NCBI RefSeq assembly: GCF_000949135.2 | Contig: NZ_JTAN02000001.1 | Location: 372,001 to 436,000, forward strand | Source: Burkholderia sp. USMB20 | GTDB taxonomy: Bacteria; Pseudomonadota; Gammaproteobacteria; Burkholderiales; Burkholderiaceae | Reading direction: 5' to 3' | DNA length: 64,000 bases | Notes under the pieces: generated by a model | Database searches by the model: none | Told to the model about the DNA's origin: nothing | Seen by the model: the letters and a program-made list of their open reading frames with translations, nothing else | Translations under genes and position numbers: made by a program | In this document: positions 33,534-56,744 of the stretch, in pieces | How the letters are laid out: every line of letters begins with the position of its first letter | How positions within the stretch are numbered: the first letter of the stretch is position 1

Positions 33534-33545
33534 GCTTGGGGCGGC

Positions 33546-34729: not shown

Positions 34730-34736
34730 GAGTCAC

Positions 34737-37598: not shown

Positions 37599-37614
37599 CT
37601 GTATGCATGTACAG
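37599..37614. promoter_or_regulatory. LexA-like box upstream of rep
   Basis: CTGTATGCATGTACAG fits the CTGT-N8-ACAG pattern of proteobacterial LexA sites and is flanked by a further C/G pair, giving the inverted repeat CCTGTA-N6-TACAGG. It lies about 345 bases upstream of the rep start. It could instead be a site for another dimeric regulator. Confidence 0.4.
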
Positions 37615-37745
37615 GCGCGGCTGACCTGGGCGACCGCAACCACGCCCGGAACCCGGAAACCGCGCCAAAAAGGATGCGCCGCGAGGCCATCGAAGCCGAT
37701 TCTCGGGCCCGGGCGCGCATTGTACAGCGCACAGAAACCGTTCGG

Positions 37746-38682: not shown

Positions 38683-38789
38683 CTCGGCCGGAAAGCCTTG
38701 CTACATAAGGCTGTGCCGTGGCGTTAACGTTTTTAACTAAGGGTTCAAGGGTGTTTACTTCTAATACTCTCAAGACATCGGTCGTCGAG

Positions 38790-40256: not shown

Positions 40257-40306
40257 CGCGCCGGTCGGCACAGCGATCGCACAGGTGAGGTGATGCGGGA
40301 CGCGTG

Positions 40307-40325
40307 AGGTGAGGTTTTTCGGGAG
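40307..40325 (-). repeat. Distal inverted iteron 1
   Basis: AGGTGAGGTTTTTCGGGAG is the reverse complement of the origin iteron. It lies in the 139-base gap between the convergent KfrA-like and recombinase genes, about 1.6 kb right of the array and in opposite orientation. Confidence 0.75.
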
Positions 40326-40395
40326 CGGGGAAACGGTGAGGCTACGCCGCACAAGGCTGCTCACGGATCACGTCGCGTGAGCAGCCGGTTCGGCA

Positions 40396-41409
40396 TCAGT
40401 GAGTTTCGTCCTGGTCGGAAGCGTCACCATTCGCGAGATCGTCACGCCAGTTTTTCCACGCGCGGTGCAGCCGGTTCGACGAGATCGGCCGCACGAAGCC
40501 GAGCCATTTGCCGACCCGCTCGGGCGGTACGTCGTGTTCGAACAGCTCGGCCGCATAGGTGTTGCGCAGCGTTTGCGGACTCGCGCGCGCGGTGCGCGAC
40601 GACGTCAGCCCCGCGGATTCGACGATCGCGTCGATTGCGCGCAGCATCGTCGCCTTGTGCATCGGCCGCCCGGCATGCGATGCGGGAAACACGAGCTCGC
40701 CGGGAATCTCCTGGCGCTTGCGCTCCACGAGCCATGCTTCGAGCAACGCGATCGCGAACGACGCCAGATGGGTTTCGCGCGCGAAATCGGGATGCGTCGA
40801 CGGGATCTGCAGCGACGTTCCGCTCGTATCGATGCAACTAATCGTGAGCACGCGTGCTTCGCCGGTCTTCACGCCGGCGCCGAGAAACGCGGCGACGAGC
40901 GCGCGGTCGCGGCGCTCTTTCCAGTACGCGGAGCCGGACACGCCGATCGGTGAAAACAGGTAGGCCAGCAACTTTGCGCGTTCGGCCGGCGTCAGGAAAC
41001 CGGTTGGCTCGTTGTCGCGTGCCTGACGCCAGTTCGCTTCGCCATCCTGAGCAATGAAGCGGGCCGGGTTGGTGGACGCGAACTCGGTGCGCCGGATGTG
41101 GTCGAGCACGCGTTCGATCAGCCGCAAATAACGCATTCGCTGCGTTTTCCGGATCGGAAGCTCGCCGACGAAGTTCGCGATCGTTGCGGTATCGACGGTG
41201 GCCAGGTTTTTCTGGTTTGCACGCAGCCACGCAAGAAAGGCGCCCCATTGCGCGCGGTAGACGTCGGCCGACGAACGGCGGTAGTCCTGCATGGCAAGCC
41301 ACGCGTCGAACGCGGCTTCGGGCGAGATGATCCAGTCGGACGCGCCGCGGTCGAACAGATCCTTTTCTTCCGGGCGTGCCGGGGTGTCGGAGGGCGTGGG
41401 AAGGGACAT
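40396..41409 (-). CDS. Tyrosine-recombinase-like protein with degenerate active site
   Basis: Protein of 337 residues with the two-domain layout of XerC/XerD: an N-terminal SAM-like core-binding domain (about residues 30-120) and a C-terminal catalytic-fold domain. Aligned by eye to XerD, box I reads GAGVKTGEARVLT (Arg replaced by Lys), box II reads SPQTLRNTYAAELF (His to Gln, Arg kept, next His to Asn), LGH is LGF, and the nucleophile Tyr position is Leu in SSNRLHRAW. It therefore probably cannot cut DNA and may act as a DNA-binding or structural protein. It lies just right of the origin with an inverted iteron downstream. Confidence 0.82.
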   Translation of the reverse strand: MSLPTPSDTPARPEEKDLFDRGASDWIISPEAAFDAWLAMQDYRRSSADVYRAQWGAFLAWLRANQKNLATVDTATIANFVGELPIRKTQRMRYLRLIERVLDHIRRTEFASTNPARFIAQDGEANWRQARDNEPTGFLTPAERAKLLAYLFSPIGVSGSAYWKERRDRALVAAFLGAGVKTGEARVLTISCIDTSGTSLQIPSTHPDFARETHLASFAIALLEAWLVERKRQEIPGELVFPASHAGRPMHKATMLRAIDAIVESAGLTSSRTARASPQTLRNTYAAELFEHDVPPERVGKWLGFVRPISSNRLHRAWKNWRDDLANGDASDQDETH

Positions 41410-41511
41410 GTTATTTATTCCGTTAGTTGCGTATATGGTAGCCCTTTCCGCAACGTCGCGGACAGCAGGATGCGGGAGCCGCCCACCGTGACGGACGCTC
41501 GGGGCCTGACG

Positions 41512-41889
41512 TCAGTCGCCCCACGCCTTCGACGGGCGGTGAACGCGCTCGCGGGGCGCCGCTTCCTGCGATTTGGCCGCGGCTTCATACGCGAGGACCG
41601 CGAACGAGAACACGGCGGGCAGCGCGTTCGATCGGCCGAAGTCGATCGGATCGTCCGTTTCGGGAAAGGTCATGTCCGACGGCCGTTCGAACAGTTGACG
41701 CATGCCGGGCTCGTGCCGGCTGGCAAAGCCGAGATCGGCGAGCGCCTCGGCTTCGATCGCGTGCAGCAGGCGCCACGACAGCGGGACGCGCTGACGGATG
41801 TAGCGCCCGGCTATATGGCGAACGATCAGTTCGAGGTCGTGCGCGGCAGCCTTGAAGCTGAGCGCGGCCAAATCTTGTTCTTCTGTCAT
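41512..41889 (-). CDS. Hypothetical protein, 125 residues, under a LexA-like box
   Basis: Soluble, largely helical protein starting MTEEQDLAALSFKAAAHDLE. It has no recognised domain; the C-terminus is Ala/Lys/Glu-rich. An AGGAG lies before the ATG at 41889. Seventy-odd bases upstream is a near-consensus LexA site, so it is probably induced by DNA damage. The recombinase-like gene follows on the same strand about 100 bases downstream and might be co-transcribed. Confidence 0.68.
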   Translation of the reverse strand: MTEEQDLAALSFKAAAHDLELIVRHIAGRYIRQRVPLSWRLLHAIEAEALADLGFASRHEPGMRQLFERPSDMTFPETDDPIDFGRSNALPAVFSFAVLAYEAAAKSQEAAPRERVHRPSKAWGD

Positions 41890-41961
41890 CGCAGGCTCCT
41901 GTCGACCGGCGCGGGCGCCTCGGTGCGCCGCCCCGGCCATGCATGGCGGAATGTCCGTATA

Positions 41962-41977
41962 CTGTACAAATATACAG
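41962..41977. promoter_or_regulatory. LexA (SOS) box upstream of the 125-residue protein
   Basis: CTGTACAAATATACAG, with flanking TA on the left and TG on the right, is close to the LexA consensus TACTGT-N8-ACAGTA. A TTGCGG-like -35 and a TACAGT-like -10 on the minus strand overlap it. Confidence 0.7.
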
Positions 41978-42017
41978 TGTTCTCCGCAACTGGCCTTTCG
42001 GCCAGCTACCCGCATCG

Positions 42018-42629
42018 TCAGCGATGAATCACGATCAGTAGTGCGCGCGCCTCGGCCTTGCCGGGGTTGCGGATCGCATGCGGCGTGTCGGCCGGGTAGC
42101 GCGCGGTGTCGCCCGCCTTCAGGCGTCGGCTCGCCGCCGCGGCTTCGATTTCCATCGCGCCCTGCAGCACGGTGAGGTGCTCGCGCGTGCCGGGTTCGTG
42201 CGCGTTCGACACGAGCGCGCCGCCGCCCGGCAGCGTCAGTTCGTACCACTCGAACTTGCCGGCCAGGTCGATCGGGCCCCATACGCGCAATTGATAGCGG
42301 CCGTCGTGGCCGGCGAGCGTCGGGATGTCGTGCGGGCCGTCCACGCGGATCGTCTCCGGCGCTTTCGGCTGAGAGAACAGTTCGTCGAGCGTGATGCCGA
42401 GCGCATTCGTGAGCCGCCATGCGACCGCGATCGTCGGATTGGCCTTGTCGCGCTCGATCTCGGAGAGCATCGACTTCGATACGCCAGCCGCGCGCGACAG
42501 GTCGTCGAGCGTCAGCTTGCGCTCGTTGCGCAGGCGCTGGATTTGCTCGCCGACGCGCGGCGGCGTCACGCCCGGCGCTTGCGGTGCGGCGCCGGCAGGC
42601 GTGCGCCGCGACGCGGAGGAACTTGCCAT
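42018..42629 (-). CDS. XRE-family regulator with cupin domain
   Basis: Regulator of 203 residues. An N-terminal helix-turn-helix (RLRNERKLTLDDLSRAAGVS, then KSMLSEIERDKANPTIAVAW) is joined to a C-terminal cupin domain (HEPGTREHLTVLQGAMEIE, GDTARYPADTPHAIRNPG) that probably senses a small ligand. It is divergent from kbl-tdh, which it most likely controls; such XRE-cupin regulators often govern amino-acid catabolism. Two direct GTTCGG repeats lie in the shared promoter region. Confidence 0.88.
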   Translation of the reverse strand: MASSSASRRTPAGAAPQAPGVTPPRVGEQIQRLRNERKLTLDDLSRAAGVSKSMLSEIERDKANPTIAVAWRLTNALGITLDELFSQPKAPETIRVDGPHDIPTLAGHDGRYQLRVWGPIDLAGKFEWYELTLPGGGALVSNAHEPGTREHLTVLQGAMEIEAAAASRRLKAGDTARYPADTPHAIRNPGKAEARALLIVIHR

Positions 42630-42652
42630 TTGGTTTCCGTTCGCTTAGAGTT

Positions 42653-42706
42653 GTTCGGTATTTCGAATTCTAGTTCGGAATATCGGATAAATGCGGTCAA
42701 CCGAAC
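42653..42706. promoter_or_regulatory. Candidate operator repeats between the XRE-cupin regulator and kbl
   Basis: GTTCGG occurs at 42653-42658 and 42673-42678, exactly 20 bases (two helical turns) apart, and its inverted form CCGAAC at 42701-42706. They lie in the 160-base divergent promoter region and are candidate regulator sites. Confidence 0.4.
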
Positions 42707-42790
42707 GACCGACTATAACAGTAGCAGGCCGTTGCGCCGCCGCCACGAGCGGCGCGCGACGGGATGCGAATCCCTGTCAGGAGCTTTGCG

Positions 42791-43990
42791 ATGCGTGATG
42801 CCTTTCTCGCCCAGGTGCGCGGGACGCTCGACCAGATCCGCGCGGACGGTTTTTACAAGACCGAGCGCGAGATCGCGAGTCCCCAGGCGGCGGCCGTGCG
42901 GCTCGCCGGCGGTGCCGGCGTGCTGAATTTCTGCGCGAACAACTATCTCGGTTTGGCGAACGATCCGCGCCTGATCGCCGCGGCGCAGGCCGGTCTCGAC
43001 CAGGACGGCTTCGGCATGGCGTCGGTGCGCTTCATCTGCGGCACGCAAACCGTGCACAAGCAGCTCGAAAGCGCGCTGGCATCGTTTCTCGGCACCGAGG
43101 ACAGCATCCTCTATTCGAGCTGCTTCGATGCGAACGGCGGCCTGTTCGAGACGCTGCTCGACGAGAACGACGCGGTGATCAGCGACGAGCTGAACCACGC
43201 AAGCATCATCGACGGCATCCGCCTCTGCAAGGCGAAGCGTTTCCGCTACAAGAACAACGACCTGTCCGACCTCGAGGCGAAGCTGCAGGAAGCCGACGCC
43301 GCGGGCGCGCGCCACAAGCTGATCGCGACCGACGGCGTGTTCTCGATGGACGGCATCATCGCCGACCTGAAAGGCATCTGCGACCTCGCCGATCGTTACG
43401 GCGCGCTCGTGATGGTCGACGATTCGCACGCGGTCGGCTTCATCGGCGCGCATGGCCGCGGTACGCCCGAGCACTGCGGCGTCGACGGTCGCGTCGACAT
43501 CATCACCGGCACGCTCGGCAAGGCGCTGGGCGGCGCATCGGGCGGCTACGTCGCGGCCCGCCGCGAGATCGTCGAATTGCTGCGCCAGCGTTCGCGCCCG
43601 TACCTGTTCTCGAACACGCTGACGCCGAGCATTGCCGCGGCGTCGCTGAAGGTGCTGGAACTGCTCGGCAGCGACGAAGGGGCGAAGCTGCGCGAACGCG
43701 TGCGCGAGAACGGCGCGCGTTTCCGCGAGCAGATGACGGCCGCGGGTTTCACGCTCGTGCCGGGCGCGCATCCGATCATCCCGGTGATGCTCGGCGACGC
43801 GCAGCTTGCGACCAACATGGCCGACAAGCTGCTGGCCGAAGGCGTCTACGTGATCGGCTTCTCGTTCCCGGTCGTGCCGCGCGGTCGCGCGCGCATCCGT
43901 ACGCAGATGAGCGCCGCGCATACGCCCGAACAGATCGATCAGACGGTCGCCGCGTTCGTGCGCGTCGGCAAGTCGCTCGGCATCGTCTGA
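42791..43990 (+). CDS. kbl: 2-amino-3-ketobutyrate CoA ligase
   Basis: PLP-dependent enzyme of 399 residues that splits 2-amino-3-ketobutyrate into glycine and acetyl-CoA, the second step of threonine breakdown by the Tdh route. The cofactor-binding Lys is in [18 protein letters not shown]; other family blocks are [31 protein letters not shown] and [20 protein letters not shown]. The ATG at 42791 has an AGGAG just upstream. The tdh gene follows after 13 bases. Confidence 0.97.
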
Positions 43991-44003
43991 CGGAGGCGCG
44001 ACC

Positions 44004-45032
44004 ATGAAAGCACTGGCAAAGCTCGAACGCGGCCCGGGCCTCACGCTCACGCGCGTGAAGCGCCCCGAAGTCGGACACAACGACGTGCTGATCAAGATTC
44101 GCCGCACGGCGATCTGCGGCACCGACATCCATATCTGGAAGTGGGACGACTGGGCGCAGAAGACGATTCCCGTGCCGATGCACGTCGGTCACGAATACGT
44201 TGGCGAGATCGTCGAGATGGGGCAGGAAGTGCGCGGCTTCGCGATCGGCGATCGCGTGTCAGGCGAAGGCCACATCACGTGCGGCTTCTGTCGCAACTGT
44301 CGCGCGGGGCGCCGGCATCTGTGCCGCAACACCGTCGGCGTCGGCGTGAACCGTGAAGGCGCGTTCGCCGAGTACCTGGCGATTCCCGCGTTCAACGCGT
44401 TCAAGATTCCGCCCGAGATCTCCGACGATCTCGCGTCGATCTTCGATCCGTTCGGCAACGCGACGCATACGGCGCTGTCGTTCAATCTCGTCGGCGAGGA
44501 CGTGTTGATCACCGGCGCGGGCCCGATCGGGATCATGGCCGTCGCGATCGCGAAGCACGTCGGCGCGCGCAACGTCGTGATCACCGATATCAACGACTAC
44601 CGGCTCGAACTTGCGCGCAAGATGGGCGCGACGCGCGCGGTCAACGTCGCGCGCGAGTCGCTGCGCGACGTGATGGCCGACCTGCGCATGACGGAAGGCT
44701 TCGACGTCGGTCTCGAGATGTCGGGCGTGCCGAGCGCGTTCACGAGCCTGCTCGAGGCGATGAATCACGGCGGCAAGGTCGCGCTGCTCGGCATTCCGCC
44801 CGCGCAGACGGCGATCGACTGGAACCAGGTGATCTTCAAGGGGCTCGAGATCAAGGGCATCTACGGTCGCGAGATGTTCGAGACCTGGTACAAGATGGTC
44901 GCGATGCTGCAAAGCGGTCTCGATCTGTCGCCGATCATCACGCATCGCTTTGCGGCGGACGATTACGAGAAAGGCTTCGCGGCGATGCTGTCCGGTGAAA
45001 GCGGCAAGGTGATTCTCGACTGGACGGTCTGA
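44004..45032 (+). CDS. tdh: L-threonine 3-dehydrogenase
   Basis: Zinc-dependent medium-chain dehydrogenase of 342 residues that oxidises threonine to 2-amino-3-ketobutyrate using NAD. The catalytic zinc site is in [16 protein letters not shown] and [12 protein letters not shown]; the structural zinc Cys cluster is [15 protein letters not shown]; the NAD-binding loop is [20 protein letters not shown]. With Kbl it converts threonine to glycine and acetyl-CoA. The 525 bases that follow hold no convincing gene, only a distal inverted iteron. Confidence 0.97.
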
Positions 45033-45123
45033 GTGCCGGCGGGGCGGTTCGGTACGTTTGCCGGCTGCTCCGCTCGTGCGGGCATGAGCGTTTGTCGGGG
45101 CTGGGCCGCTTCGACAAACGCGT

Positions 45124-45143
45124 AAGGTGAGAATATTCGGGAG
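45124..45143 (-). repeat. Distal inverted iteron 2
   Basis: AAGGTGAGAATATTCGGGAG, matching the reverse complement of the origin iteron, about 90 bases after tdh. The rest of 45033-45557 shows no gene that I can support. Confidence 0.65.
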
Positions 45144-45557
45144 CTGTGTTTGCGTACCGAACGGCGGCTCGATCATGCTGCCGCGTGTCGCGCAGGCGTG
45201 GAATTCAACGGGCTGCACGTCGTTTCCCGTCAGCGATACGAGGGCGATCGCACTTCGATTCCGCAGCACTCATCGGTGACATGCAATCGCGCATGCACCT
45301 CACCCATCAGCGCCGCTCCGCTGCCCACTCCGTCGCGTCGCTCGGCGCGTGCCTTTCTTCCTGCCCTTCCGTTTTCGCTTGTCGTGCCTGAATAGTGGGC
45401 CCTTGCCGCATCATCGCGTGTCATGGTTTTGCCCTGCGTCAGCGCCAGCACGTCACCACGCAACCCGGTCACAGCCCGGCCTCGAGGCGTGAGCCGATCA
45501 CCGACGTGCGAACTCACCCATCAGCCCGCCAGCTGGCATCGATCGGTGCGCTGCCTG

Positions 45558-45959
45558 CTATTCGATCCGCTCACCGTTCGACCGTCGCGGCTCGAGTTGA
45601 AGACTCAACACGACGAGCCAGCGTTTCGGGCATTGCGGTGCGATCTCGATCAGATCGCCATGCGCACCGGACACCGTCACGAGTCCGTTTTGCGCTGCAT
45701 GCCGATACGCGCGCGATGCGTCCGCCTGAAGCCAGAAGCTGACCAGCGCGCACGTGACGAAGCGGAACAGCAGCAATGTCGCGGCTTCCGGCGTGTCGCC
45801 CAGCAACACGAGCAGGCTGTCGAACGCGAGCGTCAGCATCTGCGTGACCGCGATCGTGATGGCCGTCAGCTTCGCCAGCCCGCGCATGCGCAGTGCTGCC
45901 CGCGTGCGGGCGTGACGTAGTGCGAGCCGCGCGCGATCGTCGTCGCTTTCGTGTCTCAC
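45558..45959 (-). CDS. Small inner-membrane protein of unknown function
   Basis: Protein of 133 residues that begins at a GTG overlapping the stop codon of the upstream acetyltransferase gene (GTGA overlap). Two membrane segments are likely: LAKLTAITIAVTQMLTLAF and TLLLFRFVTCALVSFWL. The last 50 residues are polar. I do not recognise a family. The coupling suggests a role with the acetyltransferase. Confidence 0.6.
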   Translation of the reverse strand: MRHESDDDRARLALRHARTRAALRMRGLAKLTAITIAVTQMLTLAFDSLLVLLGDTPEAATLLLFRFVTCALVSFWLQADASRAYRHAAQNGLVTVSGAHGDLIEIAPQCPKRWLVVLSLQLEPRRSNGERIE

Positions 45960-46594
45960 GACGCCGCTCCGGCGCGCTGCGCGACGTCGATCGATGTCGT
46001 GTCGGATACAGGCATCGGCTCGCCTGCTACGCCAACCGCCTTGCACAGGATCGCGCTGTCGTAGCTGTGTCCTGCAAACCGCATCACGTCGATCAACCGA
46101 AACCCTTCGCGACGATAGAAGTCGACGAGCCGGACAGCCGCATGCGGCGCATCGAGCGCGATGTGCGTCGCGCCACGCGCGGCAGCCCGCCGTTGCGCGA
46201 ACGCGAGCAGCGCACGGCCGATTCCGCGGTCCTGCCAGACCGGATCGACGGCCAGCTGGCCGAGCGTCGCGACGCGTCGGCTGCGATACGGATCGCAACG
46301 CGAATCGGGATCGTGCGGTTGCATCGTGATCGTCGCGACCAGATGCGCGTTGCCGAGCGCGACGAAACACTCGCTGGTGAGTATGCGTTCGCGCGTCGCC
46401 GACGCCGGCTGGTCGACCCCCGGACAGTTGAAGCCCGCGGCGCCGAGTGGCGCGTACGCACGATGCAGCAACGCGGTCAGCGACTCATACGAATCGCTGC
46501 GCGGATCGAAACGCCTTACCACCACGCGGCCGTCGAGCCGCTTCGCATAAGCCGCATAGGCACGCGCGGAGCGTGCGGATTCCGGTCGCTGCAT
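45956..46594 (-). CDS. GNAT-family N-acetyltransferase
   Basis: Acetyltransferase of 212 residues starting MQRPESARSARAY at 46594, preceded by AAGGA. The acetyl-CoA-binding motif A is LAVDPVWQDRGIGRALLAFA (Q-x-x-G-x-G/A pattern), followed by HIALDAPHAAVRLVDFYRRE. The substrate is unknown. Its stop overlaps the start of the small membrane protein gene. It is divergent from a TetR-type regulator. Confidence 0.83.
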   Translation of the reverse strand: MQRPESARSARAYAAYAKRLDGRVVVRRFDPRSDSYESLTALLHRAYAPLGAAGFNCPGVDQPASATRERILTSECFVALGNAHLVATITMQPHDPDSRCDPYRSRRVATLGQLAVDPVWQDRGIGRALLAFAQRRAAARGATHIALDAPHAAVRLVDFYRREGFRLIDVMRFAGHSYDSAILCKAVGVAGEPMPVSDTTSIDVAQRAGAAS

Positions 46595-46760
46595 GATGTC
46601 CTTTCGGCCAGACAGGGTGACCGAAGTGTAGTGAGCCCCCCGCGCCGGCTTCAAGAAAAAATGTCGTAAACGCCGGCTGCAATGCGCCGCTCGCCATCGG
46701 GACCATGCGGCGATCGGCCCTTCCGACGGCAGGGCCTTTTCACGCGGCTGTTGACGAGGG

Positions 46761-46774
46761 AGAACGATCGTTCT
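46761..46774. promoter_or_regulatory. Palindromic operator of the TetR-type regulator
   Basis: AGAACGATCGTTCT is a perfect 14-bp palindrome ending 11 bases before the tetR-type start, where binding would repress the regulator and the gene after it. Confidence 0.6.
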
Positions 46775-46785
46775 ACCGTAAACCC

Positions 46786-47400
46786 ATGAACACACATGAT
46801 GACCTCTCCGGTGAACCGGCCGTTCGCGACCGGCTGCTCGACGCGGCCGAGGCGCTGATCTACTCGGGCGGCATCCACGCCACGGGTGTCGATGCGATCG
46901 TGAAGCGATCCGGTGCCGCGCGAAAGAGCTTTTATTCGCATTTCGAATCGAAGGAGGCGCTGGTCGTGGCCGCGCTCGAGCGCCGTGACGAACGCTGGAT
47001 GCGCTGGTTCGTCGACGCGACGCTGGCGCGGGGCAAGTCGCCGCGTGCGCAGTTGCTCGGCATGTTCGATGTGCTGCGCGACTGGTTCGTGGAACCCGAT
47101 TTTCACGGCTGCGCATTCCTGAACGCGTCCGGTGAAATTGCCGACGCCGACGATCCGGTGCGCATCGTCGCGCGCATGCACAAGGCGCGCTTGCTCGCGT
47201 TCGTGCGCGAGCGGTTCGACGCGTATGCCGACGCAGACGGGATCGAGCGCCGCGGGCTGGCCCGCCTCGCACGTCAATGGCTGGTGCTGATCGACGGCGC
47301 GATTGCCGTGGCGCTCGTCAGCGGCGATGCCGTCGCGGCGCGCGATGCGCGCGCAGCCGCCGAATGCTTGCTCGATACGGTGTCTCGAGCGTCGCGGTAA
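46786..47400 (+). CDS. TetR/AcrR-family regulator
   Basis: Repressor of 204 residues starting MNTHDDLSGEP. The N-terminal DNA-binding domain reads RDRLLDAAEALIYSGGIHAT, then VDAIVKRSGAARKSFYSHFE. The C-terminal part is the variable ligand domain. A perfect palindrome lies just upstream, and a DUF1348 gene follows after 55 bases, so this is probably an autoregulated regulator-enzyme pair. The inducing ligand is unknown. Confidence 0.9.
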   Translation: MNTHDDLSGEPAVRDRLLDAAEALIYSGGIHATGVDAIVKRSGAARKSFYSHFESKEALVVAALERRDERWMRWFVDATLARGKSPRAQLLGMFDVLRDWFVEPDFHGCAFLNASGEIADADDPVRIVARMHKARLLAFVRERFDAYADADGIERRGLARLARQWLVLIDGAIAVALVSGDAVAARDARAAAECLLDTVSRASR

Positions 47401-47454
47401 CGCGTCCCAACCGGCTGCGTTCGTGCGCAGCCCAACCTTGAACAGGAGCATCCC

Positions 47455-47934
47455 ATGTCCGCTTCCCCGGAAGTTCGTCCGCCCGTTCCGCCCTTCACGC
47501 TCGACACGGCGCGCCAGAAAGTGCGCGCCGCGGAGGATGCGTGGAACACGCGCGACCCGCAGCGCGTGTCGCTCGCCTATACGCCGCAGAGCCGGTGGCG
47601 CAATCGCGCGGAGTTCGTGACGGGCCGCGACGAGATCGTCGGCCTGCTGCAGCGGAAATGGACGCGTGAGCTCGACTACCGGCTGATCAAGGAGCTGTGG
47701 GCGTTCGGCGGCAATCGCATCGCGGTGCGATTCGCGTACGAATGGCATGACGACGCCGGCAACTGGTTCCGCTCATACGGAAATGAAAACTGGGAGTTCG
47801 ACGAAAACGGCTTGATGGCGCATCGCCACGCGAGCATCAACGATCTGCCGATTCGCGAAGCGGATCGGCTGTACCACTGGCCGCTCGGCCGCCGTCCGGA
47901 CGATCATCCCGGCCTGTCCGATCTCGGGCTGTGA
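47455..47934 (+). CDS. DUF1348 / nuclear-transport-factor-2-like protein
   Basis: Soluble protein of 159 residues with the cone-shaped SnoaL/NTF2-like fold. Family blocks are [39 protein letters not shown] and [23 protein letters not shown]1348 proteins are widespread and of unknown function; the fold often holds small hydrophobic molecules. An AGGAG precedes the ATG. It is likely co-transcribed with, and controlled by, the TetR regulator upstream. Confidence 0.85.
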
Positions 47935-47996
47935 CGCAGCACGATGACGACGCGTGAACGCGTTCGATCACGCATCGAGCGTGCCGCCGGTGCTCA

Positions 47997-48045
47997 ACGG
48001 TGAGGAAATTCGGGAGCCGTGTATTGAGGTGAGAGTTTTCGGGAG
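47997..48045 (-). repeat. Distal inverted iterons 3 and 4 (pair)
   Basis: ACGGTGAGGAAATTCGGGAG (47997-48016) and GAGGTGAGAGTTTTCGGGAG (48026-48045) are two tandem copies of the reverse-complemented origin iteron, 29 bases apart. They lie in a 540-base gene-free gap (47935-48474) that otherwise shows no feature I can name. Confidence 0.75.
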
Positions 48046-48474
48046 AAGGAGCGATTCCGTGCGGGACGGTGTGATTCTTCACGTCCCGCGTCTCACCGAT
48101 CAATCTTCGCAGGAAACGGCGCGATTGCGCTGACGGAAGCGCCGTGCGCATTGCAGTGCTCGCGCTTTCGTTGCGTTGCCCGCACGCGAATCGAATGCGA
48201 CATCGACACTGGCGGGATTCGATCGGTGTGTAGCGATGCGCGATGCAACTCACCGCTCGACTTCGACGTGATGCCGGTTACGGCGATGGATCGACACGTG
48301 ACCGTGCGTGTCACCGCATCGCGTTGCTCACCGTTCGAAATCGACATCGATACCGACACGCGCGCATCCAGGCCCGCGCATCGGAATCAACCAGGGTGCG
48401 CGGCAGCCGGTCGTGTTGCTCACCCCTGAACACGCATCCATCGACCACCTGCGCGCACCCTGCGCATCGTTCCG

Positions 48475-49560
48475 TCAGCCGGCGATCCGCGCCGCGATCG
48501 CTTCACCCACTTCCTGCGTCCCTGCCTGGCCGCCGAGATCGCGCGTGCGCGGCCCGGTGCGCAGCACGTCCTCGATCGCCGCGACGATCGCATCGTGCGC
48601 TTCGCGTTCGCGGCCCGCGCCGTTGCCGAGGAAGTCGAGCATCATCGCCGCCGACCAGATCATCGCGATCGGGTTCGCGACGTACTGGCCCGCGATGTCC
48701 GGCGCGGAGCCGTGCACCGGTTCGAACAGCGACGGAAACGTGCGATCCGGGTTCAGGTTCGCCGACGGCGCGATGCCGATCGTGCCCGTGCAGGCCGGCC
48801 CGAGGTCGGACAGGATGTCGCCGAACAGGTTCGACGCGACCACGACGTCGAAGCGGTCGGGCTGCAGCACGAAGCGCGCGCACAGGATGTCGATGTGCTG
48901 CTTGTCGACGGCGATCTCGGGATAGCGCTCGCCCATCTCGGCCGCGCGCGCGTCCCACCACGGCATGCTGATCGCGATGCCGTTGCTCTTCGTCGCGACG
49001 GTCAGGCGCTTCGCGCGGCGCTGCGCGAGCTCGAACGCGAACTTCAGCACGCGCTCGGTGCCGTGACGCGTGAAGATCGACTGCTGCATGACCACTTCGC
49101 GCTCGGTGCCTTCGAACATCGTGCCGCCGACCGACGAATATTCGCCTTCGGTGTTCTCGCGCACGATCATGAAGTCGATGTCGCCCGCGTTGCGGCCGGC
49201 GAGCGGCGACGGCACGCCGTCGAACAGGCGCGCGGGCCGCAGGTTGATGTACTGGTCGAACTCGCGGCGGAATTTCAGCAGCGAACCCCACAGCGAAATG
49301 TGGTCGGGCACCGTCGCGGGCCAGCCGACCGCACCGAACAGGATCGCGTCCATGTCCGACAGCTGTGCCTTCCAGTCGTCCGGCATCATCTTGCCGTGCT
49401 GCGCGTAGTAGTCGCAGCTCGCCCAGTCGATCTGTTCGAACTGGAAACGGATGCCGAAGCGCGCCGTCACGGCGTCGAGCGCGCGCAGGCCCTCGGGCAT
49501 CACTTCACGGCCGATGCCGTCACCGGGGATGACGGCAATCCTGTACGTCTTGTCGCTCAT
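48475..49560 (-). CDS. ttuC: Tartrate dehydrogenase/decarboxylase or D-malate dehydrogenase
   Basis: Isocitrate/isopropylmalate-dehydrogenase-family enzyme of 361 residues. The N-terminal RIAVIPGDGIGREVMPEGL, the substrate loop LKFRREFDQYINLRPARLF, IVRENTEGEYSSVGG and the metal site NLFGDILSDLGPACTG are all present. The pattern is that of the TtuC/DmlA branch, which oxidises tartrate or D-malate, rather than LeuB, because leu genes are absent. A divergent LysR regulator, as for dmlA/dmlR, supports this. Confidence 0.85.
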   Translation of the reverse strand: MSDKTYRIAVIPGDGIGREVMPEGLRALDAVTARFGIRFQFEQIDWASCDYYAQHGKMMPDDWKAQLSDMDAILFGAVGWPATVPDHISLWGSLLKFRREFDQYINLRPARLFDGVPSPLAGRNAGDIDFMIVRENTEGEYSSVGGTMFEGTEREVVMQQSIFTRHGTERVLKFAFELAQRRAKRLTVATKSNGIAISMPWWDARAAEMGERYPEIAVDKQHIDILCARFVLQPDRFDVVVASNLFGDILSDLGPACTGTIGIAPSANLNPDRTFPSLFEPVHGSAPDIAGQYVANPIAMIWSAAMMLDFLGNGAGREREAHDAIVAAIEDVLRTGPRTRDLGGQAGTQEVGEAIAARIAG

Positions 49561-49677
49561 GCAAGCCTCCTTGGCTGTTCGGGCCGCCGGCAGCGTGCGC
49601 AGCGGAACGTGACGCCATTTTATTTATTTCCATTCAGATTAAAATCGTGCGAAAGGTTAATCGACTTTCCACGAATC

Positions 49678-50601
49678 GTGAACAAATCGCCGAATCTCGA
49701 CGACCTGCGCGTCTTCAGCCTGGTCGTCCGCCTGACGAGCTTCAGCGCGGCCGCCGAGCAGCTCGCGGTGTCGCCCGCGTACGTGAGCAAGCGCATCGCG
49801 CTGCTCGAGGCGCAGCTCGGCACGCGGCTGCTGCATCGGTCGACGCGCCGCGTGACGGTCACCGAGGCCGGCGAACGCGTGTTCGCGCGTGCCGAGAAGA
49901 TTCTCGACGACGTCGATCATCTCGTCGAGGACGTCTCGACCACACGCACGGTGCCGCGCGGCACGCTGCGCATTTCGAGCAGCTTCGGCTTCGGCCGCCA
50001 TGTCGTCGCGCCGGCGTTGCTCGACTTCTCCGCGCGCTATCCGCAGCTGAACGTGCGGCTCGATCTGTTCGACCGGCTCGTCGACGTCGCGGGCGAAGGC
50101 TACGACCTCGACGTGCGCATCGGCGACGAGATCGCCGATCACCTGATCGCGCGCCGCCTTGCCGCGAACTACCGCGTGCTGTGTGCGTCGCCCGACTATC
50201 TCGCACGACGCGGCACGCCGCGCACGCTCGCGGATCTCGCGTCGCACGACTGCCTCGCGATCAAGGAGCGCGACCATCCGCTCGGCGTGTGGCGGCTGAA
50301 CCTGCGCGGAGAAACGGCAACGGTGAAGGTCGGCGGCGCGCTGTCGACGAACCACGGCGAGGTGGCCGTGCAATGGGCGCTGGCCGGGCGCGGGATCGTG
50401 CTGCGCTCGATCTGGGAGGCGGGGCCGCTGATCGAACGCGGCGCGCTGCGGCGCGTGCTGCCGGACGTGATTCAGCCGGCGAACATCTGGGCGGTCTATC
50501 CGGAACGCGTCGCGGCTTCGGCGAAGGTGCGCGTGTGCGTCGATTTTCTGGCGGAGGCGCTCGCCCGGTTGAATGCCGCGGCGAGCGACGATGCGGGCTG
50601 A
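49678..50601 (+). CDS. LysR-family regulator, divergent from the tartrate/malate dehydrogenase
   Basis: LysR-type regulator of 307 residues. The winged helix covers residues 1-65 (NLDDLRVFSLVVRLTSFSAA, SPAYVSKRIALLEAQLG) and the ligand-binding domain follows. The start is the GTG at 49678. The subfamily resembles DmlR. It is transcribed away from the dehydrogenase gene with a 117-base gap that should carry the shared operator. Confidence 0.88.
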   Translation: MNKSPNLDDLRVFSLVVRLTSFSAAAEQLAVSPAYVSKRIALLEAQLGTRLLHRSTRRVTVTEAGERVFARAEKILDDVDHLVEDVSTTRTVPRGTLRISSSFGFGRHVVAPALLDFSARYPQLNVRLDLFDRLVDVAGEGYDLDVRIGDEIADHLIARRLAANYRVLCASPDYLARRGTPRTLADLASHDCLAIKERDHPLGVWRLNLRGETATVKVGGALSTNHGEVAVQWALAGRGIVLRSIWEAGPLIERGALRRVLPDVIQPANIWAVYPERVAASAKVRVCVDFLAEALARLNAAASDDAG

Positions 50602-50610
50602 AATCGGCGA

Positions 50611-50630
50611 AAGGTGAGCTTTTACGGGGG
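50611..50630 (-). repeat. Distal inverted iteron 5
   Basis: AAGGTGAGCTTTTACGGGGG, directly after the LysR gene. It belongs to the TTTACGGG subtype, which also occurs at 38663 in the origin and at 56509-56550. Confidence 0.7.
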
Positions 50631-50749
50631 CATGTCTGCGACGTCGGCACATGCCCGTTTTGGGCGTGCCATCGCGTCATGGGCCGACACGACGCAACAG
50701 GCAGCGATACGTCGATGGCCGCGAGGCACGCGCCCGACCGACGATGATG

Positions 50750-50830
50750 CCCGCACCCGCACCCGCACCCGCACCCGCACCCGCACCCGCACCCGCACCC
50801 GCACCCGCACCCGCACCCGCACCCGCACCC
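50750..50830. repeat. Hexanucleotide repeat (CCCGCA)x13.5
   Basis: Perfect tandem array of CCCGCA, 81 bases, in the gap between the LysR gene and argC, followed by a 13-base repeat around GGCTCACACCCGC. It ends about 45 bases beyond the argC stop. Length variation between strains is likely. Confidence 0.95.
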
Positions 50831-50874
50831 AAACCGCGGCTCACACCCGCGGCTCACACCCGCGGCTCCGGCGT

Positions 50875-51822
50875 TCAAGCCGCTTGCGCAGCGCTCGCCG
50901 CGCCGAGCATCAGGTCGAGATTCTGCACGGCCGCGCCGGATGCCCCTTTGCCGAGATTGTCGAACACGGCGGACAGCAGCACCTGACCGTGATCGTCATT
51001 GACGAACACGCTCAGCCGCAGGTCGTTCGTACCGTTCAGCGCCTGCGGATCGAGATGCGTGATCGTGCGCGTATCCGCGAGCGGCGTGACCTCGACATGG
51101 CGTGCGCCGGCGTAATGGTGCGCGAGACACGTGTGCAGCAACTCACCAGTCACGCCGGCCGGAAGAAGGCGCAGCTCGATCGGCACCGTCAGCACGATGC
51201 CCTGCCGATAGGCGCCGTAAGCCGGCACGAACAGCGGACGATGCGCGAGCCCGGCATGCAGCTGGATCTCGGGCGCATGCTTGTGCGCGAGCGCGAGGCC
51301 GTAGACCTGCAGCGGTTTCGCGCGCGCGGCGTCGTTCGATTCGAATGCGTCGACGGCGGCGCGGCCGCCGCCCGAGTAACCGGACACCGCATGGATGCTC
51401 ACCGGGTAGTCGCGCGGCAGCAGGCCGGCCTGTTGCAGCGGCCGCAGCAGCCCGACCGCGCCTGTCGGATAGCAGCCCGGATTGGTGACGCGCCGTGCAC
51501 GTGCGATGGTCTGCGCGTGCCCGTCGGCCGTCTCGGGGAAACCGTAGACCCATTCCGGTTCGGTGCGATGGGCCGAGCTCGCATCGATCACGCGTACCGC
51601 CGGATTCCGGATGAAGCCGACCGCTTCGCGCGCGGCGGCGTCGGGCAGGCACAGAATCGCGATATCGCACGCGTTGATCGCTTCGCCGCGCCGCGCGGGG
51701 TCCTTGCGCTCGGCATCCGGCAGCGTGACGAGCCGCAGGTCGGTGCGATCCCGCAGGCGCTCGTGGATCTGCAGTCCGGTCGTACCTTGGTCGCCGTCGA
51801 TATAGACAGTAGGGAGGCTCAT
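50875..51822 (-). CDS. argC: N-acetyl-gamma-glutamyl-phosphate reductase, short type
   Basis: Arginine-pathway enzyme of 315 residues that reduces N-acetylglutamyl phosphate to the semialdehyde. The NADP-binding start is [19 protein letters not shown], and the catalytic Cys is in [13 protein letters not shown]; the family block [15 protein letters not shown] is complete. The length fits the shorter type 2 enzymes. ATG 51822 (MSLPTVYI) begins the conserved part. No other arg gene is near; it is divergent from a LysR regulator, so it may be a paralogue under separate control. Confidence 0.92.
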
Positions 51823-51884
51823 GATGGTCGCGTTCCTCGTTTCGGGCATCGGGAAAGCCGTATCGTCCATCGAACGCCTAGAAT

Positions 51885-51928
51885 AGGAAAAGTTGAATTT
51901 CCTGATGACCGGATTCAGTTTTCCTGAA
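51885..51928. promoter_or_regulatory. Two inverted repeats between argC and the LysR gene
   Basis: AGGAAA-AGTTGAA-TTTCCT (51885-51903) and TTCAG-TTTTC-CTGAA (51914-51928) lie in the divergent promoter region just before the LysR start. They are the likely binding sites of that regulator. Confidence 0.5.
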
Positions 51929-51940
51929 CGAGAGGTGGGC

Positions 51941-52825
51941 ATGCGCGAGATCAGTCTGGACCGGCTGCGTACGCTGGTCGCAATCGCCGACCAGGGATCC
52001 TTCGTGGCCGCCGCGCAGCTGCTGCATCTTGCGCCGCCGACGGTCAGCCTTCATGTCGCCGAACTCGAAAGCCGCATCGGTGCGCCATTGCTGTCGCGCA
52101 CGCGCGGCAACGTGCAGCCGTCGACGATCGGTGCGGTGCTGGTGGAGCGGGCGCGCCGTCTGCTGGCCGAGGTCGAGTCGACCCTCGACGACGTGGAACG
52201 GCAGGTGCAGGGCCTGACCGGGCGGGTGCGCCTCGGCGCGTCGACCGGGGCGATCGCCCATCTGCTGCCGCAGGCGGTGGCCCGGCTGCGCGAGCAGCAT
52301 CCGGACATCGATGTCCAGATCGCGGTGCTCACGTCGCACGACACACTGGCGCGGCTTGCGCAGGGCTCGCTCGACGTCGGGCTGGTCGCCCTGCCGCAGG
52401 CGGCGGTCGCGGGGTTGTCCATCCGCGCGTGGCGGCGCGATCCGGTGCTGGCCTTTCTGCCCGCGGACTGGCGGCTGCCGGCACGCGTGACGCCGGCCTA
52501 TCTGGCCGCGCGCCCGCTGATTCTCAACGATGCGACCACCCGCCTGTCGCGGCTCACGACGGAATGGTTCGCGCTCGGCGGCCACCGGCCCGAGCCGCGC
52601 ATCGAACTCAACTACAACGATGCGATCAAGAGCCTGGTCGCCGCGGGTTACGGCGCGACGCTACTGCCGCACGAGGCGGGCGCCCCGTTGCCCGACCCAC
52701 GCATCGTCATGCGGCCGCTGCGTCCGGCGTTGTGGCGCGAACTGGGCATCGCGCATCGGGCCGGCCCGGTCGAGCGGTCGACCCAGCACGTGCTCGACGC
52801 GTTGTGGGCGCTCGGCGCGCGCTAG
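51941..52825 (+). CDS. LysR-family regulator, divergent from argC
   Basis: LysR-type regulator of 294 residues starting [14 protein letters not shown], with AGAGG upstream. Helix-turn-helix: [20 protein letters not shown] and [15 protein letters not shown]. The ligand domain contains [20 protein letters not shown] and a hinge typical of the family. The shared gap with argC holds two inverted repeats, which suggests control of argC and itself. Confidence 0.88.
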
Positions 52826-52851
52826 GGCGCTCAGGGAACCGCGCCGCCGTC

Positions 52852-53316
52852 CTACAGCCGGTTGTCCTTCGCGAGCATCAGCACGCGCGCCCAGCGCTGC
52901 GCATCGCGCTTGTCCATCATCGGCAGTTTCCATTCGCCGCGCACCGCGTCGCGCACGCGCACGACGAGATGCCAGCGGCCGCCGATCGGCGCCGCCTCGC
53001 AGCCGTCGAGCTGCGACAACGTATAGCGGCCGTCCGCGCCGTCGTGCGACAGCCACAGCAGCCCCTGCGTCGCGGACACGCGCAGCTCGCCCCACGCGCG
53101 ATGCACGATGTGGGTCCAGCCTTGTTCCTTCGTGTTCGGTGCGATGTCGCGGCGGCGCTTGATCCACCATGCGATCAGCGCGATCAGGATCGCGGCGGCG
53201 AGCACGGCGGCCGCGTTCGCGACCGGCTGGCCGAACTGCGCGGCGATGACGTGAAACAGGTGGACGGCGCCCCATCCCAGGGCGATGAGCGCGAACAGCG
53301 CAATGAAGATCGGCAT
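52852..53316 (-). CDS. Hypothetical membrane-anchored protein
   Basis: Protein of 154 residues with two N-terminal membrane segments (PIFIALFALIALGWGAVHLF and AAAVLAAAILIALIAWWI) and a soluble C-terminal domain of about 95 residues containing GLLWLSHDGADGRYTLSQLD. The family is not recognised. It follows the patatin-like gene on the same strand after about 60 bases and may be the last gene of that run. Confidence 0.65.
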   Translation of the reverse strand: MPIFIALFALIALGWGAVHLFHVIAAQFGQPVANAAAVLAAAILIALIAWWIKRRRDIAPNTKEQGWTHIVHRAWGELRVSATQGLLWLSHDGADGRYTLSQLDGCEAAPIGGRWHLVVRVRDAVRGEWKLPMMDKRDAQRWARVLMLAKDNRL

Positions 53317-53376
53317 GTCGAATCGGAACAAAGGACGGACCGGCGCAGCCTGCGCGCCGGTCCGTCGCATACGGCA

Positions 53377-54594
53377 TCACCGGCGGCGGTGAATGTCGTG
53401 CGTGACGAAGCCCGCGTCGTTGGTGGGCAGCGCGAGGCCGTCCTTGACCGCGAGCGTCTTGCGGATGTCGTCGAGACCCGCGCACCAGTGGTCGCGCATC
53501 GTCGACAGACCGAACTGATAGTCCTTGTAGTGGTGCTCGTACGCCTTCTGCTGATAGATCAGGTGCTGGATGTTGTATTTCTTCCCGCTCGACATCGCTT
53601 CGGCCTCGATGCACCACGGGTCGTTCTTGCGCTGCTCTTCCGGCACCTGCTCGAGCACGTGGCGCAGCACGTTGCGGTAGCGCTGTTCGCGCTGCAGCGT
53701 ATCGGTGACGAAACGCGTGCGGCTCGAATACTGCACGTCCTTCGTGCGTTCCGCGACGTCGGCCATCGTGCGCGGCAGCGGCCCGCGCGCGCTCCACAGA
53801 TCGACCTGGAACGCGAGCGTGTCGCGCCGCGGACGCGCGCGCAGCACTTCCATCAGCGGCGTGTTCGACACGACGCCGCCGTCCCAGTAATACTCGCCGT
53901 CGATTTCGACCGGCGGAAACGCGGGCGGCAGTGCGCCGGACGCCATGAAGTGCTCGGGTTCGAGGCGGATGCGCGAGTTGTCGAAGTACACGAAGTTGCC
54001 GGTGCCGACGTTGACCGCGCCGACCGACACGCGCGTCTCGCCCGAGTTGATCCGGTCGAAATCGCACAGCTTGAGCAGCGTCGCGCGCAGTGCCGACGTG
54101 TCGTACCAGCTGATCTTTTCCGGATGATCGGACACGCCCGGCAGCGGCGGCGGGAAGCGCGGCGAGAAGAAGCCCTGCTGGCCCTGCATCATCGCGCTTG
54201 CGGCCTGCGATGCGGTGAAGAACGTGCGGACCTGGTCGATGCTGTTGAACAGCGCGAATTCGAACGCGGCCGGAATCGCGGGAAAGAACGCCGGCTGGCA
54301 GATCGTTTCCCAGAATTGGCGCAGCCGCTCGACGCGATGTTCGGGTGCATTGCCGGCGATCAGCGCGGTGTTGAGCGCGCCGATCGAGATGCCTGCGATC
54401 CAGTCGAGCGGAACGCCCGCTTCGTGCAGCCCTTCGAACACGCCGGCCTGATACGCGCCGAGCGCGCCGCCGCCCTGCAGGACGAGCGCGATGGTTTCGT
54501 ACGGCAGCGACCGCGCAGCGGCCGGCGCGCCGGCTTCGTGATGCAGGTCCGCCGCATCGACGGCCTGCTTTTCTGTACGCGCGTGCGGTTTCAT
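53377..54594 (-). CDS. Patatin-like phospholipase
   Basis: Patatin-family lipid hydrolase of 405 residues. The oxyanion loop GGGALGAYQAGVFEG, the nucleophile GxSxG as GISIGALNTALIAG and the catalytic Asp in YYWDGGVVSNTPLME are all present. The long C-terminal extension (DUF3734 type) is typical of proteins linked to polyhydroxybutyrate metabolism. It is downstream of bdhA and adc on the same strand, which points to use in PHB or lipid turnover. Confidence 0.9.
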   Translation of the reverse strand: MKPHARTEKQAVDAADLHHEAGAPAAARSLPYETIALVLQGGGALGAYQAGVFEGLHEAGVPLDWIAGISIGALNTALIAGNAPEHRVERLRQFWETICQPAFFPAIPAAFEFALFNSIDQVRTFFTASQAASAMMQGQQGFFSPRFPPPLPGVSDHPEKISWYDTSALRATLLKLCDFDRINSGETRVSVGAVNVGTGNFVYFDNSRIRLEPEHFMASGALPPAFPPVEIDGEYYWDGGVVSNTPLMEVLRARPRRDTLAFQVDLWSARGPLPRTMADVAERTKDVQYSSRTRFVTDTLQREQRYRNVLRHVLEQVPEEQRKNDPWCIEAEAMSSGKKYNIQHLIYQQKAYEHHYKDYQFGLSTMRDHWCAGLDDIRKTLAVKDGLALPTNDAGFVTHDIHRRR

Positions 54595-54717
54595 CAGTTG
54601 CTCCGAGAAATCCCGCCGTGGACGGCGGAGATGGATGGCGTGGCGTCGACCGACGGCACGCCGTCCTTGGTATGGATGGTGGTGTGGAAGTCGCCTCCCG
54701 TTACAGAGGCGAGGACC

Positions 54718-55503
54718 TTACTGCATGAACCAGCCGTGGCTGACGACGAACGACTGGCCCGTGAGCGCGGCGCTCGGGAACGCCGACAGGAACAGCACCG
54801 TCTGCGCGACGTCCTGCACCGTCGTGAACACGCCGTCGACCGTGTTGCCGAGCATCACCTTCTTCACCACTTCCTCTTCGCTGATGCCGAGCTCCTTCGC
54901 CTGCTCCGGAATCTGCTTGTCGACCAGCGGCGTGCGCACGAAGCCCGGACACACGACGTGCGAGCGCACGTTGTGCTTCGCGCCTTCCTTCGCCAGCACG
55001 CGCGCCAGACCGAGCAGCCCGTGCTTGGCCGTCACGTACGCCGACTTCAGCGGCGACGCTTCGTGCGAGTGCACCGAACCCATGTAGATCACGACGCCGC
55101 CGCGATCGTCCTTGTACATGTGCTTGAGCGCGGCCTTGGTCGTCAGGAACGCGCCGTCGACGTGGATCGCCTGCATCTTCTTCCAGTCGGAGAACGCGTA
55201 GTTCTCGATCGGGTTGACGATCTGGATGCCCGCGTTCGACACGAGGATGTCGACCGAGCCGAACGTGTCGGCCACCTTGTCGATGCCGCTGTTGACCGCT
55301 TCCTCGTTGGTCACGTCCATCGCGACGCCGATCGCCTTGCCGCCTGCCTTGACGATCTCGTCGGCAACCGCGTTTGCGCCGTCCTGGTTCAGGTCGGCGA
55401 TCGCCACGGCCGCGCCCGCTTTCGCGAGCTCCAGCGCGATTTCCTTGCCGATGCCGCTTGCGGCGCCCGTGACGACTGCGGTCTTGCCATTCAGGTTGCT
55501 CAT
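54718..55503 (-). CDS. bdhA: 3-hydroxybutyrate dehydrogenase
   Basis: Short-chain dehydrogenase of 261 residues converting 3-hydroxybutyrate to acetoacetate with NAD. It has the Rossmann motif [16 protein letters not shown] in LVSNAGIQI, the catalytic Ser region [15 protein letters not shown] and [10 protein letters not shown] (Tyr-x3-Lys). It lies between adc and the patatin gene, together a ketone-body/PHB degradation set. Confidence 0.94.
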
Positions 55504-55554
55504 TTCGAATTCCCGTGGTGAAAGGATTGACAGGGAGAAAGGACTGCGGACGTG

Positions 55555-56295
55555 TTACTGAGCCAGGTAATCGTAGACGACTTCGCCGAGGCCGAGTGTC
55601 AAATCCGCGACGAGGTGGCGCGCTTCGACGATCTCGAGCACCGGCAGGTCGGCCACCGGCGCGAGCGCGTGCGGTGCCAGTTCGAGCGACGCGGGGCCCG
55701 TCCACGCGCCCTTCATCCTGATGTCCTGCATGTAGTAGCGCACCAGTTCGCACACGCGTGCGGTGCCGTCGACGTGCGGGATGATCTTCAGCAGGAAGTT
55801 CGGGCCCGCGAGGCGCTTCGTCTGCTCGTCGATGTCGAGCTCCTTGTGCTTGTAGCCCATCGTGCCGGTCGCGACGCGCACCTTGCCGTAGTCGAGCGTG
55901 CCCAGCAGGTGGTCGGTGTTCACGTGCAGCGTGGGCGACGCGAGTTTTTTCGGGAAACCCCACAGCTCGCGGCCGCCGGCGATCGGCGGGTGATCGTCGA
56001 GATACATCGCGAGCGTGTAGCCGCCGGCCTGGCCGTTGTACTCGACGGGGATCACCTGGCCGCTTTCCGTGTAGTCGCCGAAGCCGGTCGAATCGGCCAT
56101 GCGAATGAATTCGTAATGGACGAGCGGCTCTTTGACCTGCAACGGCTCGGGCACGATTTCACGCAGACGGTCCGGATCGGTGCGGTACGTGATGATCAGA
56201 AACTCACGATCGACGAAACGGTACGGGCCCATCGGAAAGGCCGGGCTGGTCAACGGCATCGCAAACGCTTTCGATCGGACATCGCTGGGTTTCAT
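55555..56295 (-). CDS. adc: Acetoacetate decarboxylase
   Basis: Enzyme of 246 residues that turns acetoacetate into acetone and CO2. The catalytic lysine pair is seen in [19 protein letters not shown], the standard GxPKK site. It is the first gene of the adc-bdhA-patatin run, so acetoacetate formed by BdhA can be decarboxylated. The 450 bases upstream hold no gene but two inverted iterons. Confidence 0.93.
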
Positions 56296-56508
56296 GCGGA
56301 CTCCTTGTTGTTGATCGCTTCGTGGATGAGTGCTCGTAAGCTCGTAATCCTATGCCTGTGCGTTGCCGTTGTGCGATGCCGCATATGGAATTAATTGTTG
56401 CCGATTTCGAATGATTTGCGAGGCAAATATTGAGACGAACGGTGCAAACGGCATGGCGCGCCTGAGCGGTCCGATACTCGCACGGGTCGGTGACGCCACG
56501 ATGTGAAA

Positions 56509-56550
56509 AAGGTGAGCTTTTACGGGATGGTCAGTGAGCTTTTACGGGAG
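56509..56550 (-). repeat. Distal inverted iterons 6 and 7 (pair)
   Basis: AAGGTGAGCTTTTACGGGAT (56509-56528) and CAGTGAGCTTTTACGGGAG (56532-56550) are adjacent copies of the inverted origin iteron, about two helical turns apart. They lie in the 449-base gap 56296-56744, which otherwise shows only promoter-like sequence; they are about 18 kb from the array. Confidence 0.75.
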
Positions 56551-56744
56551 ACAGTCGCGCGTGAATGTGACAATTGTGTGAACTTGTGTTGCAGTACAGG
56601 CTCTAAGTGCGTTCGCGCGCGGGCCTCGGTCCTGGTCACCGGTCGCCCGGCGCATTAAGCACTGCTTAAGCGAGTGAGCACTAGCATCGTTCGCATCCGA
56701 CCGGCACCGCCGGTCCCGTCACGACATCCCACGCAACCGGATTC

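Follow-up and report, generated by a model that had tools for sequence, protein, structure and literature searches.

The origin region of a Burkholderia secondary chromosome carries, outside its origin iteron array, further copies of the iteron that keep their place, strand and pair spacing across Burkholderia. The region was found in a 64,000-nucleotide stretch of Burkholderia sp. USMB20 (contig NZ_JTAN02000001.1, positions 372,001–436,000; the whole stretch is called the window), which encodes parAB, the initiator Rep, the iteron array and a kfrA-like gene. The kept place, strand and pair spacing support the view that these distal sites are selected elements with a function tied to the initiator. 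They are probably outlying binding sites of the chromosome 2 (c2) initiator Rep that form a selected control regulon of the c2 origin (ori2). A pair of c2-type sites also lies at the origin of chromosome 3 (c3) in many relatives and is a new finding here.

The origin array (37371–38683, +) consists of 17 irregularly spaced iterons with the consensus CTCCCGAAAAnCCTCACCT, which agrees with the c2 iteron of Burkholderia cenocepacia J2315, printed as ctCCCGAAAAacCTCACCTtt (PMC4948915). Rep (35892–37253, −) is a Rep3-family initiator with WH1 and WH2 domains (PF01051, E 3.5e-12; PF21205, E 7.7e-10), and its gene adjoins the direct-repeat array, as in iteron-controlled (Rep3) replicons. Compared with the PDB, the Rep profile weakly matched pi and RepE-type initiators at the second winged helix (E 2.3e-4 to 4.5e-3). 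The KfrA-like DNA-binding protein is encoded at 39075–40256 (+; PF11740 KfrA_N, E 4.1e-19).

Distal sites were scored with a matrix built from the 17 array copies only, using a cut-off of 12 bits in the window; TCCCG-N6-CTCACC served as the working pattern. Outside the array, the window has 10 matches of at least 12 bits; 20 first-order Markov resamplings gave a mean of 0.8 and at most 3. Each of the ten is oriented toward the origin. The original prediction had listed seven of them, as intergenic sites of the right arm that point opposite to the 17-copy array. All seven were recovered on the minus strand, at most 1–2 bases from where they had been placed, with scores of 20.2–32.1 bits: 40305–40327 (32.1 bits), 45123–45145 (30.3 bits), 47996–48018 (23.1 bits), 48025–48047 (28.1 bits), 50610–50632 (27.8 bits), 56508–56530 (26.0 bits) and 56530–56552 (20.2 bits). 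They lie outside all callable genes, with an ambiguous right-hand neighbour gene at 45123. The list was incomplete and lacked two right-arm sites: 40281–40303 (−, 19.0 bits), which forms a 24-bp-spaced pair with 40305 just past kfrA, and a marginal weak site inside an acetoacetate decarboxylase-family gene (55936–55958, −, 14.3 bits). The hedged statement that no site lies left of the origin proved wrong, as a 23.5-bit site is present in the left arm on the array's strand (23583–23605, +), within a squalene/phytoene synthase gene (23173–24045, −). The motif string given with the list was one base short, and a literal search with it yields one match at up to 3 mismatches. Two further pairs are formed by 47996 and 48025 (27–31 bp) and by 56508 and 56530 (22 bp). 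Convergent genes flank 40281/40305, 47996/48025 and 50610, and divergent genes flank 56508/56530. A tyrosine-recombinase-family gene (40399–41409, −) directly adjoins the 40281/40305 pair. A perfect CCCGCA repeat (13.5 copies) and a 13-bp repeat occupy 50750–50868, about 120 bases past the site at 50610.

Conservation was tabulated site by site over 17 regions, the window plus 16 others from Burkholderia; the table excludes G007, which is more distant and spans just 20 kb, and four regions from other genera. Unmapped matches were assigned by their neighbours, and the left-arm distance in G032 is an artefact of a gap between stretches. The sites at 23583, 40305, 47996, 48025 and 50610 are present on the same strand in 17/17 regions, and those at 40281, 45123, 56508 and 56530 in 16/17. 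Two of the four misses (56508 and 56530 in G001) fall at a contig end, and a like pair is found near the end of another G001 contig; the 45123 miss is W03, which has a 13.7-bit match nearby. The site at 23583 maps to the same place in three of the four other-genus regions, and the weak site at 55936 scores 15.0–15.3 bits at the same place in three relatives (G002, G006 and W03). Pair spacings are likewise kept: 24 bp in 15/15 relatives, 22 bp in 15/15 and 27–31 bp in 16/16. The twelve core letters are 89–100% like those of the window and the 30-base flanks 41–96%, the core figure being partly built in because the sites were picked with the matrix. No such bias affects their presence at the same place. 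The distance from 45123 to 47996 ranges from 1.6 to 9.5 kb among the regions, so the sites are not tied to one neighbour spacing. The proposed check of conservation across Burkholderia thus came out in favour of the sites in place, strand and pair spacing.

The coding site at 23583 offers a separate view of selection. Its AGR and GGG codons are kept in 19 of 20 rows, including three other-genus genomes; the twentieth row (G105) is misaligned. Both codons are uncommon, with AGR making up 4.1% of Arg codons and GGG 11.8% of Gly codons in 20 chosen open reading frames of the window, and their retention points to selection on the DNA. This argument is stronger than a plain synonymous average, but it rests on related sequences. 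The neighbouring Ile codon is held less strictly (ATT/ATA in 16/20, GTT in 2, ATC in 1). Plain-average synonymous conservation at these codons was also tried and was not telling (0.94 versus 0.85 for the rest of the gene, with other stretches reaching 0.99).

A wider sample consisted of 80 named loci, kept from 180 loci of a scan via the KfrA-like protein; judged by identity and title, 35 are near Burkholderia and 45 are of Paraburkholderia-Trinickia type. Each has 13–17 array matches of at least 16 bits. The right arms, taken up to 10 kb past kfrA per locus, contain 431 sites, 379 of them inverted, and resampled right arms gave 2 matches in 792,683 bases. The near-Burkholderia set has 164 inverted sites and 1 direct site. 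On the left (par) side of the array, no site was found in 550,241 bases (up to 7.4 kb per locus, 80 loci). Every locus (80/80) has an inverted site of at least 10 bits within 250 bases past kfrA, and 77/80 have a pair spaced 20–30 bp past kfrA. Many Paraburkholderia-type loci carry a further run of sites about 7.5–9.5 kb past kfrA. Within 150 kb on the right arm of four other-genus genomes, 36 sites read toward the origin and 10 away (hand count). One locus, L244 (Paraburkholderia fynbosensis), is unlike the other 79 in having nine direct (+) c2-type matches, 73–76 bp apart, 8153–8756 bases past kfrA.

Genome-wide distribution was determined in relatives, the nearest compared genome sharing 29% of the window's sampled 31-letter words. 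Three complete chromosome 2 records have 31, 33 and 29 exact matches to TCCCG-N6-CTCACC. Stretches of 181, 226 and 171 kb around the origin, delimited post hoc and amounting to 5.1, 7.0 and 5.4% of the respective record, contain 30, 29 and 27 of them. On the same records, the reversed pattern has 1, 2 and 0 matches. Matches no commoner near the origin than elsewhere had been named as grounds for rejecting the prediction; the 86 of 93 exact matches within these 171–226 kb spans speak for a clustering about the origin. Across 13 same-genus genomes there are 28–45 exact matches and 1–6 to the reversed pattern. A scored model gave 37, 37 and 36 matches at E 1 or better in three finished genomes (G002, G032 and G070; 110 in all), with none at that level outside the contigs carrying c2 or c3 rep among the 150 of 1665–1836 candidates scored per genome. 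Exact matches on chromosome-1-type contigs, a type inferred from size, are scattered at 0–5 per genome in eight genomes (G002, 0; G032, 1; G094, 5; G136, 2 or 3; G065, 5; G116, 1; G072, 4; G105, 2), near the reversed-pattern level of 0–6.

A second cluster of 9–13 matches, mostly 23 bp apart, is present in 14/14 regions, which were picked because exact matches had been seen there. At 2.7–2.9 kb from it lie a 22-bp pair and then a strong single site in the opposite sense. In 11 of the 12 genomes with both on one contig, 136–209 kb of the par side separate the cluster from the array (hand-derived). For B. cenocepacia J2315, which has the same iteron consensus as the window, a table legend of Du et al. 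2016 (PMC4948915) lists a second c2 cluster at "140kb anticlockwise" as well as others "throughout the genome". Viewed by eye in one genome, the second cluster is surrounded by acetyltransferase-like and H-NS-like genes and no replication gene.

The c3 origin has its own rep, about 36% identical to c2 rep, and its own iterons (CCCATAA-N2-GG-N-TACC). A c3 rep was present in 51 of 61 sampled genomes, at 95–100% identity in 50 and 69% in one. A pair of c2-type sites was found upstream of c3 rep, beside the c3 iterons, in 40/51 genomes, a pair being defined as two same-strand matches of at least 8 bits that each have a CTCAC core; 39 genomes remain at 13 bits. The pair is spaced 33 bp in 34 genomes, 34 bp in 4, 32 bp in 1 and 35 bp in 1, and lies 1.64–1.79 kb before the matched rep start in 39 genomes and 3.1 kb before it in one. 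At 13 bits, no such pair was found on the other strand of the 51 c3 regions, and resampled regions gave 2 single matches in 51 (a control run at 13 bits only). Two of the remaining genomes (G145 and G141) have a single strong site, not counted as a pair, and nine have neither. Among 34 aligned pairs, few letters between or beside the sites reach 75% agreement. Six genomes (G001, G003, G005, G006, G012 and G032) have a further c2-type site 16–50 kb off on the c3 contig. The c3-type pattern was not found on c2: its 13 matches in four genomes are all on the c3 contig, which is weak evidence because so strict a pattern detects the c3 array only in part. Outlying c3-type sites seem to occur about 9–10 kb past c3 rep on the array's strand, like 23583, in G032 (C3:742248), G012 (C4:562537) and G136 (C4:1222779); in G070 an outlying c3-type match is about 139 kb off instead.

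The distal sites thus carry the array motif on the same replicon near the origin, as expected of titration or handcuffing sites. They hold fixed places and strands across species, are dense just clockwise of the array and were not found in the first 7.4 kb of the par side. Rep is the probable user. Known iteron binders are Rep3-family initiators. Four reduced genomes (1.1–1.2 Mb; c2 contig 61–72 kb) keep Rep (77–82% identical), ParA, ParB and array matches, and kfrA was not found within the 12–19 kb fetched around their arrays; an array that stands without a nearby kfrA is as expected for Rep iterons. All 13 exact matches in these genomes are in the array (in G081, if the contig is circular), and the near absence of inverted sites from a plasmid-sized c2 agrees with large replicons needing such a device. 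Two genomes with a Rep 38–41% identical have an array of TCCCYG-N6-CTCACC and like sites outside it, so that the iteron letters appear to change with Rep divergence, which we count in favour of Rep as the site user.

The sites most likely restrain re-firing of ori2 by titration or pairing. Each distal site would bind Rep. Sites near the origin would be copied soon after firing, and their doubling would take up Rep and lower the free Rep per origin. The doubled sites could also become partners for Rep-bridged pairing with the array, which would prevent the origin from firing twice per cycle. In this way, an origin of plasmid type would acquire a chromosome-type brake. From the sequence pattern, we infer the brake or timing role that the original prediction had suggested.

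At the c3 origin, the c2-type pair would probably make both secondary chromosomes share an initiator pool, and could let the c2 initiator help, hold or sense c3. It is conceivable, at somewhat less than even chances, that the c2 initiator also acts there and that the strand-fixed pair couples c3 firing to c2 firing in one direction. If true, plain iterons would here tie the timing of one secondary chromosome to that of another. In B. cenocepacia, c2 foci double before c3 foci in nearly all cases, and the passages reporting this give no initiator-based cause (PMC4948915).

Several observations weigh against a Rep-based brake. Array copies outnumber the near sites. Orientation is less strict in the Paraburkholderia-type set (215 inverted and 51 direct right-arm sites), and the three sites beside the second cluster break a simple rule of reading toward the origin. 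In one genome (G136:C2:25377–28842), the second cluster is about 100 kb off on the kfrA side if the contig is circular; its position looks as if an inversion or rearrangement had moved it. The reduced genomes retain three weak outlying matches: an inverted one of 14.9 bits, and two of 15.0 and 16.4 bits that share the strand of the array. Their inverted sites went together with kfrA and replicon size, and two larger same-genus relatives (3.6 and 3.8 Mb) have kfrA with 7 and 8 inverted sites. Lastly, kfrA is present beside both of the 38–41% identical Reps, and the distal sites could bind KfrA or a further protein.

These last points are shared by an alternative in which the distal sites serve the KfrA-like protein instead of Rep, for instance in folding or anchoring the origin region, with an array that may serve both proteins. 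In 80/80 loci, a set found through kfrA, this gene separates the array from the first inverted site, and neither kfrA nor strong inverted sites were found in the four reduced genomes. Against this, the array persists where no kfrA was found nearby. Seven c3 loci searched, which have their own Rep and iterons, likewise yielded no kfrA, yet at least five of them carry the c2-type pair. Use by KfrA seems unlikely. A structural device is rather improbable. Here, Rep-bound sites close to the origin and in the far cluster would draw the origin region together into a single domain for segregation and leave firing unaffected. The conserved strand, spacing and far cluster would fit it, and Hi-C of B. 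cepacia has ori2 contacting a large part of chromosome 1 (PMC13342612). The present results do not separate it from firing control, and segregation is already served by parABS. It is quite improbable that the sites are operators for neighbouring genes, acting via Rep or another factor; the pair at 56508/56530 sits suitably between divergent genes, but of the nine strong distal sites, six are intragenic or have convergent neighbours, the sites stay where the DNA between them varies in length, and RctB of V. cholerae appears to control no transcription other than its own (PMC11711613). Leftover functionless iterons or chance, which a short motif and a few isolated matches elsewhere might suggest, are almost certainly the wrong explanation and already contradicted by conservation, given core letters kept better than flanks, nine sites present in 16–17 of 17 regions and the 431 real against 2 resampled matches.

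Rep-mediated restraint has parallels in known systems. Plasmids P1 (incA) and F (incC) have iterons outside the minimal origin that reduce copy number through titration or handcuffing; these are close to the plasmid origin, whereas the Burkholderia sites extend over tens of kilobases. In V. cholerae, RctB binds iteron-type sites that lie on chromosome II beyond ori2, and these sites reduce the copy number of the origin; deletion of one such site gave no growth phenotype (PMC3937223, PMC6090056). As in Burkholderia, these are iteron-type sites of a plasmid-like initiator outside the origin of the same replicon (Baek and Chattoraj 2014, PMC3937223). The V. cholerae sites are about 40 kb from ori2 and spread over 74 kb; the Burkholderia sites are more numerous and much nearer. 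The Burkholderia set also differs in its strand bias, fixed pairs and mostly 23-bp-spaced outer cluster, and involves another initiator and motif. The V. cholerae crtS site on chromosome 1 resembles the c3-origin pair as a site on another replicon tied to a secondary-chromosome initiator (PMC11711613, PMC6090056). Unlike crtS, the Burkholderia trans sites are ordinary c2-type iterons at the origin of a third replicon, and among the 150 candidates scored per genome in three genomes, no model match at E 1 or better fell on a chromosome-1-type contig. Neither the exact pattern, with its scattered matches, nor the scored model revealed a crtS-like iteron on chromosome 1, copying of which would trigger the secondary origin; a crtS of another motif would escape both searches.

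Distal iterons as such are already in print (Du et al. 2016, PMC4948915) and have a Vibrio parallel. That paper is not known to describe a strand bias or conservation of the sites, nor sites in the right arm or c2-type sites near c3 rep, and its S1 Table may list some of the sites. Our literature search turned up no publication describing conserved sites of the right arm or a c2-type site at the c3 origin. The ordered firing of several bacterial chromosomes is known molecularly for few systems; a 2026 survey names the Vibrio crtS. The conserved sites provide small, exact targets for study of a once-per-cycle c2 brake and a c2-to-c3 link, and conserved tags at the c2 and c3 origins hint at how such bacteria might keep their chromosomes in step.

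The remainder of the origin region has a partition locus and several repeats. The parA and parB genes of chromosome 2 (34051–35798, +) were assigned by Pfam matches. Six palindromic GTTTATGCGCATAAAC-type sites without strand (33181–34729; repeat family D6) are presumably parS. Within this parS-like cluster is a perfect 8-bp tandem repeat, CACCGCTT, of 8.5 copies (33546–33613). Immediately left of the cluster is a 100-bp tandem repeat of 3.7 copies with 77% matches (32230–32595). Also to its left (31155–31177) are a perfect DnaA box at 31169 (−) and a one-mismatch box at 31155 (+).

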